Positions 53,302 through 59,394 of a DNA stretch of 64,000 nucleotides are shown in pieces; the first letter of the stretch is position 1; each line of letters opens with the position of its first letter. The position numbers and the translations under genes were made by a program. Origin of the DNA: Lysobacteraceae bacterium (GTDB lineage Bacteria > Pseudomonadota > Gammaproteobacteria > Xanthomonadales > Xanthomonadaceae); the NCBI GenBank assembly GCA_030681035.1, contig JAUXUI010000010.1, positions 1 to 64,000 of the forward strand, read 5' to 3'. Below the pieces are notes generated by a model. It did no database searches, was not told the DNA's origin, and worked only from the letters and a program-made list of their open reading frames with translations.

Positions 53302-54108
53302 ATGAACAGCATTGCGCCGAATATTGATTTATTGCAGCAACGATTTGCCAGTATTGATCGCCTCTATGGTGCGGGTGCTACTGCCGGCTTTTCTGGCCGC
53401 CATGTCTGCGTGATCGGTCTTGGCGGTGTGGGTTCCTGGGCGGTGGAAGCTCTGGCGCGCAGTGCAATCGGCGCGCTGACCCTGATCGATGCCGACGATG
53501 TTTGCGTGAGTAATACCAGCCGACAGATACAGGCGCTGGACGGCAATTTTGGCCGCGCCAAGGGTGAGGTGCTGGCGGAGCGCTGTCGTGCCATCAACCC
53601 GGCAATAACGTGTCAGGTGATACCTGCATTCCTGACGCCATCCAATCTCGGAGAGTTGCTTGATCGCGGCTACGACCTGGTACTGGATGCCTGTGACAGC
53701 TTTCGCAGCAAGGTCGAAACCATCGCCTGGTGCCGGCGCCGCAAGTTGCCATTGGTTGTAGTGGGTTCGGCCGGTGGCCGTGTTGATGCCACCCAGGTGC
53801 GGGTGCGTGATCTGAGCCGAACCGAGCACGACGCGATGTTGTCGCTGATCCGCAAGAAGCTGCGCGGCGAGTTCAATTTTCCACGCAATGCGCAGCGCTA
53901 CTTCGGGGTGTCGGCGGTGTATTCGCTGGAAAACGTGCGTTATCCGCAGGCTGATGGCACAGTCTGTGGCATCCGGCCTGCGGCGAACTCTGACGGTGGT
54001 TTTAACCTGGATTGCGGTTCTGGCCTTGGCGCTGCGACTCACGTCACCGGTGCGTTCGCGTTTGCTGCGGCTGGGCGTGCGCTTGAACTGCTGCGCCGTG
54101 CATCTTGA
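53302..54108 (+). CDS. tcdA: tRNA threonylcarbamoyladenosine dehydratase
   Basis: A 268-residue E1-like enzyme that cyclises t6A to ct6A at position 37 of tRNAs. The ATP site is VIGLGGVGSWAVEALARS, with LTLIDADDVCVSNTSRQ and LVLDACDSFRSK. The family C-terminal block LDCGSGLGAATHVTGAF is present. It is followed after 100 bases by the methyltransferase gene on the same strand. Confidence 0.94.
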   Translation: MNSIAPNIDLLQQRFASIDRLYGAGATAGFSGRHVCVIGLGGVGSWAVEALARSAIGALTLIDADDVCVSNTSRQIQALDGNFGRAKGEVLAERCRAINPAITCQVIPAFLTPSNLGELLDRGYDLVLDACDSFRSKVETIAWCRRRKLPLVVVGSAGGRVDATQVRVRDLSRTEHDAMLSLIRKKLRGEFNFPRNAQRYFGVSAVYSLENVRYPQADGTVCGIRPAANSDGGFNLDCGSGLGAATHVTGAFAFAAAGRALELLRRAS

Positions 54109-54209: not shown

Positions 54210-55604
54210 ATGAACGAACTGGGCCGGGGGCGCGACGACGACAGGTCGGCTGTGGATGCGATATCCGCGTCGATCAAGGCTGGCAACGTCGCGGCAGCGA
54301 TCAGCCAGTGCCGGCAGCGGCTTGCGGTTGAGCCAATAAACGCCGCGATCTGGGGGTTGCTGGGTTCGGCACTGGCGGCTGGCGGCGAGATCAACGAGGC
54401 CGGTAAAAGCCTGGCGCGCGCGATTGCCAGCGACCCGGCCGAGCCGACCTATCACGTGCAGATGGGTGAGTTGTACGCGCGCCTGGAGCGCGCCAGCGAT
54501 GCCGCTGCGTGTTTTGAGCGGGCGCTGGCACTGGCACCCGAGCACCTGCCGGCCCTGCATGGCCGTGCCAATGCGCTGTGGGCGCAAGGCAACCTGTTGG
54601 CGGCGCGGCAAACCTACCAGCAGATACTCGCGTTACGTGGCGATGATGCCTTTGCCGAGCGCAATCTTCGGCTGATCAATGGCCGTCTGGTCGAGCGTTG
54701 GCATTTTCCGATGGTCAGTGATGGCCCGCGCAATACGCAGTACGAACAGGCTCTGTGCGCGGCGATCACACCCGATTCAGTGGTGCTGGATATCGGTGCC
54801 GGCACTGGCCTGCTGTCGATGATGGCAGCGCGCGCCGGTGCGCGCCACGTGATTGCCTGCGAAGGTAACCCGGCGATGGCCGAACTCGCCCGCGAAATCA
54901 TTGCCCACAATGGCCTTGCCGACAAAATCACCGTGCTTGCCAAATCGTCGTTTCAGATCGACCCGCAGGCCGATTTCCCCGCCTGCCTGCGCCCCAATCT
55001 GATCGTGGCCGAGATTTTCGACGCCACCGTGATCGGCGAGGGAGCGTTGGCAAGTTTTGCCCATGCCCGCAGCCATCTGGCGCTGGAAGGCGCACGGATC
55101 ATCCCGGCGCGGGCGCGGCTGCATGGTGTGCTGATCGAATCGGACATGCTCTGGCGCGAGGGTGCCGCCGATCATGCCAGTGGTTTCGATCTGCGCATGC
55201 TCAACCAGTACCGGCCGGATTGTGTCGGTGTAGAGGCGCACGGGTTTCAGGGTGTCGCGTTGTCCGACGACTTCGCCATCTTCGATTTTGATTTCACCGC
55301 CGATGCCGCAACCAGCCCCATGCACAACACGCTGGAAATCGAGGTCACCCGTGCCGGCGTGTGCCATGGTGTTGCCTACTGGATGCGTTTGCAGCTCGAT
55401 GATGAGCGGGTGCTGGATAATCGCCCTGATCTGGGCAATGGCGTGTCCGATGCGTATTGTGCGCACTGGCACCAGATGGTGCGCTTGCTGATACCTGCGC
55501 TTGCCGTGCAGCCCGGCATGCGTATTCGCATCCAGGCGCAGCACGACCACCATTCAGTCGCGTTGAGCGTGTTCGATCCGGCGACTGGTTTGTCCGGCTG
55601 TTGA
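54210..55604 (+). CDS. TPR protein fused to a PRMT7/PRMT9-like arginine methyltransferase
   Basis: A 464-residue protein. Residues about 47-148 form three TPRs (IWGLLGSALAAGGEINEAGK, YHVQMGELYARLERASDAA, PALHGRANALWAQGNLLAA). The rest follows PRMT order: HFPMVSDGPRNTQYEQAL before motif I (VLDIGAGTGLLSMMAARAGA), then the double-E loop VAEIFDATVIGEGAL (Glu269, Glu278) and a THW-type loop as CAHWHQMV (418-423). The double-E loop closely recalls eukaryotic PRMT7, and TPR-plus-PRMT recalls PRMT9. The expected reaction is SAM-dependent methylation of arginine in a protein; the target is unknown. No signal peptide. GAGG precedes ATG 54210. Ribosomal L11 methyltransferase is the common mis-annotation. 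Confidence 0.8.
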   Translation: MNELGRGRDDDRSAVDAISASIKAGNVAAAISQCRQRLAVEPINAAIWGLLGSALAAGGEINEAGKSLARAIASDPAEPTYHVQMGELYARLERASDAAACFERALALAPEHLPALHGRANALWAQGNLLAARQTYQQILALRGDDAFAERNLRLINGRLVERWHFPMVSDGPRNTQYEQALCAAITPDSVVLDIGAGTGLLSMMAARAGARHVIACEGNPAMAELAREIIAHNGLADKITVLAKSSFQIDPQADFPACLRPNLIVAEIFDATVIGEGALASFAHARSHLALEGARIIPARARLHGVLIESDMLWREGAADHASGFDLRMLNQYRPDCVGVEAHGFQGVALSDDFAIFDFDFTADAATSPMHNTLEIEVTRAGVCHGVAYWMRLQLDDERVLDNRPDLGNGVSDAYCAHWHQMVRLLIPALAVQPGMRIRIQAQHDHHSVALSVFDPATGLSGC

Positions 55605-55653
55605 CAACATCACAGGTGTTGCGCTTTTCAGGTGCGCAAGGTCTACTTCCGCC

Positions 55654-56313
55654 ATGAACCAGAACGAACGATACCGCAGTGCCGGTGCTGTGCTGTGCGA
55701 ACGAATGGTGCCGCCGGAAGTGGCTGCGGCGATGGCTTACCAGATCAGCCTGCAGGTGCGAAAGAGCGGCGACCAGTGTCTGGCGCCGCCGCTGATAACC
55801 AGCAAGCCGTGTTACGAAATCTACTGTTACCAGTGGCCGGTGCTGCTCACGTTTTTATGGGCGATGACGCCGAAAATCGAGGCTGTTGTGGGCCGCCCGC
55901 TGCTGCCGACGTACAGCTACTTTCGTACCTATCAGCAGGGCGATGTGTGTCGCATCCATGCCGACCGCCCGGCCTGTGAGCATTCGGTTTCGCTGACCCT
56001 GGCCTACTCGGATGACAAGCCGTGGGCGTTGGCAGTGGCCAACGATCCGGCACCGCTGGAGCAGCGCGGCACCATCCGTGGCGATGAGGATTTTGGGGCG
56101 GGCGGATACAGTGAGTTTGCGATGGCGCCCGGTGATGCCGTGGTCTATCGCGGCACCGACTACCTGCATGGGCGGCTGACACCCAATCCCAATCGCTGGT
56201 CGGCACATTTGTTTCTGCATTGGGTTGATCGTGAAGGCCCCAATCACGAGCAGGCCTTCGATGGTCGATCGGTTGTTGGAAATACCGATTTCGTATTTCC
56301 TGCAGTTGGCTGA
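55654..56313 (+). CDS. 2-oxoglutarate/Fe(II)-dependent oxygenase
   Basis: A 219-residue cytosolic protein. The Fe(II) facial triad is readable as His102-x-Asp104 in CRIHADRPACEH and His172 in GTDYLHGR, with Arg181 in NPNRWSAHLFLHW for 2-oxoglutarate. The preceding TYSYFRTYQQGD strand and FAMAPGDAVVY are typical of prolyl-4-hydroxylase-like folds. It lies 49 bases after the PRMT-like gene on the same strand, so the two likely form an operon. Hydroxylation of a peptide or amino-acid side chain is the expected chemistry; substrate unknown. Confidence 0.75.
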   Translation: MNQNERYRSAGAVLCERMVPPEVAAAMAYQISLQVRKSGDQCLAPPLITSKPCYEIYCYQWPVLLTFLWAMTPKIEAVVGRPLLPTYSYFRTYQQGDVCRIHADRPACEHSVSLTLAYSDDKPWALAVANDPAPLEQRGTIRGDEDFGAGGYSEFAMAPGDAVVYRGTDYLHGRLTPNPNRWSAHLFLHWVDREGPNHEQAFDGRSVVGNTDFVFPAVG

Positions 56314-56340
56314 CAGGCGGTGGTTGGCCGCCTGTCAGCC
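56308..56340. terminator. Hairpin between the oxygenase and the TonB receptor
   Basis: A perfect 13-bp stem (GGCTGACAGGCGG at 56308-56320 with 56328-56340) and a 7-base loop. It begins inside the oxygenase stop codon and lies 10 bases from the convergent receptor stop. No T-run follows, so it may work mainly as an RNA-end stabiliser or with Rho. Confidence 0.65.
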
Positions 56341-56349
56341 ATGCAGGGA

Positions 56350-58761
56350 TCAGAACTCGCTGGACAAACGCGCGAACAGCGCGGTTCCGTTCAGGCCAAA
56401 CTGCACACTGTCGTACTTGAAACCGTTGTCGGTTTCGTCGGCATTTTGCGCACTCGGAAACTGGTCGAAGATGTTGGCCGCACCGATGGTGAACTTGGTC
56501 TTGCCAGCGTTGAAAGCGTAGGTGAGGCTGGCATCGGCCGACAAGCGTGCGTCGTACTTGAGGTTCGGCACCGGTGGCCCGGAGAACGTGCCGAGGGTTT
56601 GCGAGCCAAAGTAAATCAGCTTGAACAGCCCGTTCCATGAGCCGTGGGTGTAATCGAACGCCAGCGTGCCCTTGCTGCGCGGCGCACCGTTTTCGATAAA
56701 CAGTTTTTCGCGGTTGTCGAGCAGGGCATCTTCGCGCCCGGCGAGCGCGGCTGGGGTGTTGACGCGGCGGACATCGGTCTTGTTGTAGTTGAATCCGAGC
56801 AGGGTAACCAGCTTGCCCCCGGCCATCGGCATGTCGTGGGCGGCGGTGACATCAACGCCACGGGTTTTGGTATCGACCGAGTTGACGAAGAACTGTGCTT
56901 CACCAACACCCAGTTGATCCAGAATCGCGCCGATACTCGGGTCGCTGTCGTCGAAACGGCCGCTGAGCACAATGCGGTCATCGATGTTGATCCAGTAGCC
57001 GTCAACCGTCAGCGTGAGGTTGTCCAGCGGCTCCCAGGTGAAGCCAAGGGTGAAGTTGTCGGAGGTTTCTTCCTTCAGCTTGGGAATGCCGGCGGCGTTG
57101 GCCACGGCACCGCCATTGGGCGCCAGCACCACATCGGTGGGCACGCCGCCGATGAAGTCGGTGAAGGTGGAGGAGAAAAAGCGCTGTTGCAGCGACGGCG
57201 CACGGAAGCCGGTACTGACCGAGCCACGCAGGCGCAGGCTGTCGGTGGTGCGATAAGCCCATGCCAGCTTGCCGTTGAGGGTGGTGCCAAAATCGCTGTA
57301 GTCCTCGTAGCGGCCGGCAATATCGACCATCAGGCGGTCGGTGACGCTGGCTTCCAGATCAACATACGCGGCCCAACTGTCGCGGCTGGAGTTGGTTTCA
57401 TCACCCGGCTGGAAGCCTGGGAATCCCTGACTGCCGGCATTGCCGCCACCGGCACCGTCAGCATCGATGAAGGAACCCGCCTCGCCAGCAAAAATCTTGT
57501 AGCGCTCGTCGCGATACTCGCCGCCGAAGGCCACGTTCAGGCCCTGAAACACGCCATCGTAGTAGCGGCTGATGTCGAGGTTGCTGGTTTGCTGGCGGAA
57601 CGAGAAGCCGCCGGCATCAAAGCGGGTAGGGCTGATGCCGGCGCCGCCTGCGAGCAGATTGGCATTGGCGATCGAGGCGTTCAGCGTATTGGAGATGTTG
57701 TAGAGCAGCTCGTTGTAGCCGTAGGTAGTGCTCAAATCGACATGCCAATCGGCGAAGTCACCGCGCGCGCCGACAGTGGCGTAGCGGTCTTCGAGGTCGC
57801 CATTGATGAATGGCACAAAGCCGTCAGGAAACATTGCAGCGGAATTGCGTGACGGAATATCGTCCGAAACGATGCCGCCGCGCGCGAATGCCGCCGAGGA
57901 TGCATCGCGATCCTGGTAGGTGCCGGTGAAATACGCTTCGACATTATCGGTGATGCCGAACGTGCCGTTGCCGGCCACCGTGGTGTTGTCGACGCTGGAA
58001 TCGCCGATGGTGCGCGGGTTGTCCTTGCCCGAGCGGTCGGAGCGATTGCGACTCAGGTACTCAGCGGTGACGCCCAGCACGCCGCGTTCACCGAGTTCCA
58101 CGCCGCAATAGGCGGTGGTCAGATCGTTTTCACCATCGCCGCGTGAATATTGGCCGTAAGCAAGCACGCCTTCGCAACCGAGACGCTGCTTGAGGGTGAT
58201 GTTCATCACGCCGGCAATGGCATCGGAGCCGTACTGCGCCGCCGCGCCATCGCGCAGCACTTCCACCTGTTCGATTGCCAGTACCGGGATCGTGTTCAGA
58301 TCGGTGCCGGTGGCGCCGCGGTTGCGCGCGCCGAACAGGTTGACCAGCGACACGTTGTGGCGGCGTTTGCCATTGACCAGCACCAGGGTCTGGTCGGCAC
58401 TCAGGCCACGCAAGGCCGCCGAGTCGATCAGGTCGGCACCATCGGCGCCGGTCTGCCGCGTCGAGTTGAATGACGGCGCGATGAATTGCAGGGTCTGGCC
58501 CAAGTCGAACTGCGCGCCCTGGGTGGCGGCCTTGGTCATCGGAATGATGTCCACCGGCACCAGGGTCTCGGTAGCCGATGTGCCCTGCCGGCGCGAGCCA
58601 AGCACCATGACCTTGTCGAGCGATTTGGCTTCGGTTTGATCCGCCGTGGCATCGGTGTCACCGCCGTCCTGCGCCCAGACTGGCGCAGCCACACCCAAAC
58701 CCATCAGTACAAACAACGGCAGGGCATTGCCCACGGCCGTAAACAGCAGCGATTTACGCAT
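56350..58761 (-). CDS. TonB-dependent outer-membrane receptor
   Basis: An 803-residue receptor. The signal peptide (PLFVLMGLGVAAPVWAQ) is followed by a short linker and the plug domain: LDKVMVLGSRRQGTSATETL, LRGLSADQTLVLVNGKRRH, IPVLAIEQVEVLRDGAAAQY, GSDAIAGVMNITLK. The 22-strand barrel follows, ending in VQFGLNGTALFARLSSEF with the terminal Phe. Ligand unknown; this plug type is widespread in xanthomonads and caulobacters for carbohydrate or peptide uptake. ATG 58761 begins the signal peptide. Convergent with the PRMT/oxygenase pair. Confidence 0.93.
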   Translation of the reverse strand: MRKSLLFTAVGNALPLFVLMGLGVAAPVWAQDGGDTDATADQTEAKSLDKVMVLGSRRQGTSATETLVPVDIIPMTKAATQGAQFDLGQTLQFIAPSFNSTRQTGADGADLIDSAALRGLSADQTLVLVNGKRRHNVSLVNLFGARNRGATGTDLNTIPVLAIEQVEVLRDGAAAQYGSDAIAGVMNITLKQRLGCEGVLAYGQYSRGDGENDLTTAYCGVELGERGVLGVTAEYLSRNRSDRSGKDNPRTIGDSSVDNTTVAGNGTFGITDNVEAYFTGTYQDRDASSAAFARGGIVSDDIPSRNSAAMFPDGFVPFINGDLEDRYATVGARGDFADWHVDLSTTYGYNELLYNISNTLNASIANANLLAGGAGISPTRFDAGGFSFRQQTSNLDISRYYDGVFQGLNVAFGGEYRDERYKIFAGEAGSFIDADGAGGGNAGSQGFPGFQPGDETNSSRDSWAAYVDLEASVTDRLMVDIAGRYEDYSDFGTTLNGKLAWAYRTTDSLRLRGSVSTGFRAPSLQQRFFSSTFTDFIGGVPTDVVLAPNGGAVANAAGIPKLKEETSDNFTLGFTWEPLDNLTLTVDGYWINIDDRIVLSGRFDDSDPSIGAILDQLGVGEAQFFVNSVDTKTRGVDVTAAHDMPMAGGKLVTLLGFNYNKTDVRRVNTPAALAGREDALLDNREKLFIENGAPRSKGTLAFDYTHGSWNGLFKLIYFGSQTLGTFSGPPVPNLKYDARLSADASLTYAFNAGKTKFTIGAANIFDQFPSAQNADETDNGFKYDSVQFGLNGTALFARLSSEF

Positions 58762-59394
58762 TTTGATTCCCCTAATTCCGGTAACGGCCGTCCCCAATCG
58801 CAGCTCGCCACGGCCCCAGCCGGCTGCGTTGCCGGTGCGCTGCACCGACGATCACCTGCAATGTAGCGCGGCGCGCAGCGCACGGGAAGATGCTGCCTGC
58901 TGTGCTCGTGCGTGTGCAGGAGCCCGATGTGGGCGGTCGGCATGTACTTCGGTTGGAAAATTACCATCGCGCACAGGGTGCGCCCCTACAAAAAATCGTG
59001 ATCTGCCCCTGTAGGAGCCCGGTGCGGGCGACCGGCATGTACCTCGGTTGGAAAATTACGGTCGCGCACAGGGTGCGCTCCTACAAAAAAACGGTGCTCT
59101 ACCCCTGTAGGAGCCCGGTGCGGGCGACCGGCATGTACCTCGGTTGGAAAATTACCGTCGCGCACAGGGTGCGCTCCTACAAAAAATCGTGATCTGCCCC
59201 TGTAGGAGCCCACCCTGTGGGCGACAGATGCCATGTGCGCAGCATGTGCCTGGTCGCGCACAGAGCCGGCCCCAGGCTTGATCTGACAGCGCTTCCACAG
59301 GAACCCTTCGGCTTAACGTGGTGAGGAGCTTTGCGCGCTGGCGCGCTGCCAGCGGTGTGTACACTGAGCACCCGGGTAACCGTATGGGCTGGCA
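58762..59394. other. Intergenic stretch dominated by palindromic repeats
   Basis: No gene is supported here. The central part is the tandem array listed separately. The stretch should carry the promoters of the divergent receptor and alpha/beta hydrolase genes, but no convincing -35/-10 pair stands out. Confidence 0.6.
58915..59224. repeat. Tandem array of about 95-bp palindromic units (family A related)
   Basis: Units start at 58915, 59010 and 59106, with a last partial copy from 59201. Each begins TGTAGGAGCCCGGTGCGGGC and ends with a near reverse complement (CGCACAGGGTGCGCTCCTAC), so each is a hairpin. The final copy (59201-59224) reads TGTAGGAGCCCACCCTGTGG, the family A arm found at 14507 and 23202. 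It is not a CRISPR: the inter-arm sequence is repeated too. Confidence 0.9.

Follow-up and report, generated by a model that had tools for sequence, protein, structure and literature searches.

A bacterial TPR protein of the PRMT7/PRMT9 clade, a probable protein arginine methyltransferase

Protein arginine methylation is usually viewed as a eukaryotic trait. The bacterial gene described here encodes a protein, P0001, that belongs to the clade of the eukaryotic protein arginine methyltransferases PRMT7 and PRMT9. It is probably a protein arginine methyltransferase, with a substrate that is likely to be bound by its TPRs. The protein combines an N-terminal TPR domain with a single PRMT module, retains a complete set of catalytic residues, and is under purifying selection within its genus (dN/dS 0.12–0.21). 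The gene that follows it, P0002, is a separate local neighbour that shares the locus in this genus only and is not a conserved partner. Both genes lie in the window, a stretch of 64,000 nucleotides from a draft genome of 3.6 Mb (Table 1).

Table 1. Positions of the TPR-PRMT gene, its motifs and its surroundings in the window.
Feature	Position	Strand	Remarks
TPR-PRMT gene P0001	54210..55604	+	464 aa; PDB sequence search, fold search, tree
P0001 N-terminal TPR region, residues 8-157	54231..54680	+	Pfam TPR models, nine model helices
P0001 linker and pre-motif I VERWHFPMVSDGPRNTQY, residues 161-178 (HFPMVSDGPRNTQYE, 165-179)	54690..54743	+	
P0001 motif I (SAM binding) SVVLDIGAGTGLLSMMA, residues 190-206 (LDIGAGTGLLSMMA, 193-206)	54777..54827	+	
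P0001 acidic E218, after motif I	54861-54863	+	
P0001 double-E loop LIVAEIFDATVIGEGALAS, residues 264-282 (VAEIFDATVIGEGAL, 266-280)	54999..55055	+	glutamates E268, E277
P0001 AHW, residues 418-420 (CAHW 417-420), THW-loop counterpart	55461..55469	+	
P0002, probable Fe(II)/2-oxoglutarate oxygenase, 219 aa	55654..56313	+	neighbour of PRMT, not a shown partner
P0002 H102/D104	55957-55965	+	
P0002 H172/R174	56167-56175	+	
Strong hairpin between convergent genes, likely shared terminator	56305..56344	.	-33.1 kcal/mol, z -5.6
Upstream ThiF/TcdA-like gene, context	53302..54108	+	also adjoins PRMT in L003
Convergent TonB-dependent receptor, context	56350..58845	-	also in L003, where oxygenase missing

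The methyltransferase class of P0001 can be read from comparisons of sequence and of fold. A phmmer search of the PDB returned PRMT7 (E 9e-53), PRMT9 (E 4e-43) and Trypanosoma brucei PRMT7 (E 3e-29), with every type I PRMT ranked below these three. Matches to PRMT7 and PRMT9 at this level mean that the likeness is not due to chance. The last TPRs, the linker (..LVERWHF.M..D..RNT.Y..) and the catalytic core are all covered by one continuous alignment with PRMT9. Linker and pre-motif I are nearly identical in the two proteins, and the pre-motif I segment VERWHFPMVSDGPRNTQY has LVERWHFIMLNDTKRNTIY as its PRMT9 counterpart. Foldseek, used with an AlphaFold model of moderate confidence (pLDDT 72.9, with its minima at residues 318–345, in the linker and in the double-E loop), ranked bovine PRMT9 first (E 9.9e-21, 463 columns, spanning the TPR and catalytic parts) and T. 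brucei PRMT7 second. The Rossmann and beta-barrel fold of the PRMTs is found in this moderately confident model. The PRMT7/9 assignment made by the sequence-only reading is thus borne out by sequence, predicted structure and, as described below, phylogeny.

The motifs on which that reading relied (pre-motif I, motif I, the double-E loop and CAHW) are all present, and they align with those of PRMT7/9 and of the bacterial relatives. Motif I contains LDIGAGTG and is followed by an acidic residue after beta 2, namely E218. The glutamates E268 and E277 align with the double-E pair of PRMT7, PRMT9 and yeast HMT1. The THW loop is AHW, alanine replacing threonine, with histidine and tryptophan retained. 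The N-terminal TPRs are likewise present: several Pfam TPR models score above cut-off within residues 22–146, and the nine helices of the AlphaFold model extend from residue 8 to residue 157. The protein ends after its single PRMT module, and a second tandem module of the PRMT9 type is absent.

Each of the two eukaryotic enzymes resembles P0001 in part. The order of TPRs followed by a PRMT module is that of PRMT9 (bovine 8rbk, human 6pdm), but PRMT9 has a second PRMT-like module where P0001 has one active module, and TCW where P0001 has AHW. PRMT7 (mouse 4c4a, T. brucei 4m36) shares the double-E loop E.FD..(L/V)IGEGAL and the HW.Q loop, and the T. brucei enzyme also consists of one module; P0001 differs in being bacterial and in its added TPR domain. 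The product of PRMT7 is monomethylarginine, and that of PRMT9 is symmetric dimethylarginine (PMC10578352).

Phylogenetic analysis of 45 sequences, with a thin eukaryotic part of five partial sequences taken from alignments to PDB entries as printed, united P0001, the bacterial family, mouse PRMT7, bovine PRMT9 and T. brucei PRMT7 on one branch (length 1.26, support 100/100). Yeast HMT1, mouse PRMT6 and another set of bacterial PRMT-like proteins fell outside it. The same branch was recovered in a second tree with support of 100/99. In the 45-sequence tree, the order within the branch is mostly unresolved.

Names in the databases point elsewhere. Pfam and NCBIfam name P0001 poorly, the top whole-domain matches being TPRs and PrmA, the ribosomal protein L11 methyltransferase, and relatives are commonly filed under the same two headings, most of the named plasmid matches as ‘50S ribosomal protein L11 methyltransferase’ or ‘TPR protein’. 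On P0001, the Pfam PrmA model passes its cut-off on residues 181–270, and Pfam PRMT_C stays below its own on P0001 (23.6 vs 27), with one relative passing at 39.4. The PRMT5 family profile (PF05185) has no match in the source genome. It is nevertheless exceedingly improbable that P0001 is an L11-type or generic methyltransferase mistaken for a PRMT. PrmA shares the SAM-binding core but lacks the double-E loop and the PRMT barrel, whereas P0001 has a double-E loop, a C-terminal barrel and an HW loop. PRMTs lead both the PDB and the fold searches, with PrmA scoring far below them, and the NCBIfam prmA model reaches 28.4 against a cut-off of 183. The present data refute such an identity, unless the lysines of L11 are the substrate. 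A non-catalytic scaffold that has kept the fold alone is scarcely more credible. Double-E or HW residues are altered in some distant relatives (e.g. L026, L054 and L059), but those of P0001 are all intact and are conserved across its genus and in the ortholog of a more distant genome, G262.

SAM-dependent methylation of the guanidino group by way of motif I, the double-E loop and the HW loop is established for PRMTs. Since the SAM motif, the double-E loop and the HW loop are intact in P0001, we infer the same chemistry for it. SAM would be bound through motif I of the single active Rossmann-plus-beta-barrel module. The guanidinium of an arginine would be held by the two double-E glutamates, with the HW loop helping to position it, and the methyl group would be transferred to a guanidino nitrogen. 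TPR domains are typical of protein binding, and those at the N-terminus of P0001 most likely bind a protein substrate, which is why a protein arginine methyltransferase is the favoured reading.

The main rival concerns the substrate. P0001 could be a small-molecule enzyme that methylates free or carrier-bound arginine for a natural product, as SznE does in the streptozotocin pathway. SznE/StzE, which is likened to P0001 by description and not by sequence, is a bacterial arginine guanidino methyltransferase that transfers methyl groups to free L-arginine and is encoded in a biosynthetic cluster (PMC11705231, PMC11429834). Among the relatives of P0001, two TPR-less PRMT7/9-like genes on plasmids of Pantoea dispersa (L135, 6340–11558) and Methylobacterium indicum (L138, 5926–9983) both adjoin genes for an iron-containing redox enzyme, a Rieske protein and an ATP-grasp protein. 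This is a PRMT-oxygenase grouping that recurs in two classes and is reminiscent of SznE/SznF. In addition, a PRMT-like domain (residues about 986–1250) lies inside a non-ribosomal peptide synthetase of 2173 residues (L116, 4108–10629), and long frames similar to it occur in G1153 and G1243. Since the TPR-less relatives are encoded in what are likely to be natural-product clusters, some members of the family may act on small molecules. For P0001 itself this seems improbable: it carries the TPR domain, and no biosynthetic genes adjoin it in the window, where its neighbours are the ThiF/TcdA-like gene and the TonB receptor.

The sequence-only reading had also paired the PRMT with the downstream gene, as two enzymes that modify the side chains of one protein or peptide, or of which one reverses the other. 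The coordinates, reading frames and 49-base gap that it gave for the pair on one strand are correct. The two genes are both under purifying selection, and they lie next to each other in three of the genus's four genomes, each from a different species. The fourth genome (G001) has an intact PRMT and cleanly lacks the oxygenase: about 60 bases separate the PRMT stop codon from the receptor gene, the sequences flanking the oxygenase on both sides align within 300 bases of one contig, and the genome holds no oxygenase ortholog, the one match being a remote relative (E 1.5e-6). Conversely, G027, from another genus, encodes an oxygenase 63% identical to P0002, behind a methylthioinosine-phosphorylase-like gene and without a PRMT. 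G262 has a PRMT ortholog and no oxygenase relative, and the 14 PRMT-bearing genomes outside the genus (G262 and 13 others) yielded one weak match to the oxygenase family (E 6e-4), on a different contig. No oxygenase relative was found near the PRMT at about 40 loci elsewhere, a count that is approximate, as the simple gene caller missed the PRMT itself in a few stretches. The adjacency is thus a feature of this genus. A two-enzyme system is unlikely, and the conserved co-occurrence expected of one is not seen (three of four genomes in the genus, none of about 40 loci elsewhere).

On its own terms, P0002 is probably an Fe/2OG oxygenase. Across ten relatives, with identities as low as 21%, H102, D104, H172 and R174 do not vary. 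R181, the arginine at the usual spacing, is not conserved in the family, so the earlier description of an intact H-x-D...H...R set holds only in part. As 21 of the 127 long open reading frames of the window contain a loose HxD...H...R pattern, that pattern was not accepted as evidence by itself. Selection on the gene is purifying (dN/dS 0.05–0.06 within the genus). P0002 had no match in Pfam or NCBIfam, and its profile matched mostly 2OG dioxygenases at the top of a PDB search, weakly (E 0.14–1). A structure predicted from four sequences was discarded (pLDDT 35.6). P0002 does match the phage family phrog_2954 (E 8.7e-31), and tblastn found 154 phage records, chiefly from cyanophages, whereas P0002 is chromosomal. 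The label ‘ferrochelatase’ carried by phrog_2954 looks wrong, given the HxD...HxR pattern of its bacterial relatives. Another relative of the oxygenase (L121, 3559–9649) lies near a tryptophan halogenase, a PqqD-like protein and an ABC transporter, in what looks like a peptide-modification cluster.

No conserved neighbour hints at the substrate of the PRMT. A relation to the convergent TonB receptor, which the sequence-only reading had left open, did not hold up: within the genus, the receptor is conserved as part of the local gene order, but it was not seen near the 56% identical ortholog in G262, and it was rejected as a partner. No recurring neighbour of the PRMT was found across classes. 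Acyl-CoA dehydrogenase genes flank the PRMT in L055, L101 and L102, and not elsewhere.

P0001 is a genuine, under-described bacterial member of the PRMT7/9 type and not an oddity of one genome. The PRMT is present in all four genomes of the genus. Beyond the genus, a search of 60 relatives gave a single match, a double-module protein of 859 residues in G015. G262, which belongs to another family of the same class, has an ortholog that is 56% identical across the catalytic part. When 398 genomes of the phylum were searched with a profile, 13 were positive, namely the source genome and 12 from outside the class. In another class of the same phylum, 289 genomes were sampled, and the TPR/PRMT7-9-like family was detected in 34 of them. 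Named plasmid matches came from Rhizobium, Tistrella, Tropicibacter, Methylobacterium, Pantoea, and Eleftheria. This scatter over the genus, G262, other classes and plasmids marks P0001 as belonging to a bacterial family, with a patchy distribution. In a list of roughly 30 loci, most have TPRs and a PRMT core with the signature W-H-x-x-M-x-x-D-x-x-R-N. A partial coverage of the literature turned up nothing specific on bacterial PRMTs or on a bacterial PRMT7/9 branch. The earlier description of PRMTs as largely eukaryotic understates a branch of this size, with 13/398 and 34/289 genomes positive.

Members of the family occur in varied settings. G015 (L026, 8291–10969) and Eleftheria terrae (L134, 7450–10101) encode TPR proteins that have two PRMT-like modules, of which the second is the more intact; in both cases, genes for a PPTase and for polyketide synthases lie nearby. 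In L052 and L053, TPR-PRMT genes lie within tandem arrays of TPR-protein genes, several with glycosyltransferase family 41 (OGT-like) domains. At L059 (7429–15581), a PRMT-family gene is found near genes for a P-loop/HPr-kinase-like protein, a Stf0 sulfotransferase, PqqD, and asparagine synthase, as in lasso peptide clusters. L060 has a neighbour that resembles that of L059 and is without a Pfam match.

The shared clade raises the question of where the eukaryotic enzymes came from. The three eukaryotic PRMT7/9 rows form one group in 0% of 200 bootstrap trees, and a single eukaryotic group is not rejected (AU p 0.442). Tentatively, eukaryotic PRMT7 and PRMT9 might descend from the bacterial TPR-PRMT family, in which case the TPR-linker-PRMT layout of PRMT9 would have existed beforehand in bacteria, and eukaryotes would have acquired the genes, perhaps more than once. 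A PRMT7/9 branch with intact catalytic residues extends across Pseudomonadota, masked by the label ‘L11 methyltransferase’. Its recognition makes two questions testable: whether bacteria contain protein methylarginine made by PRMTs, and what the origin of PRMT7/9 was.
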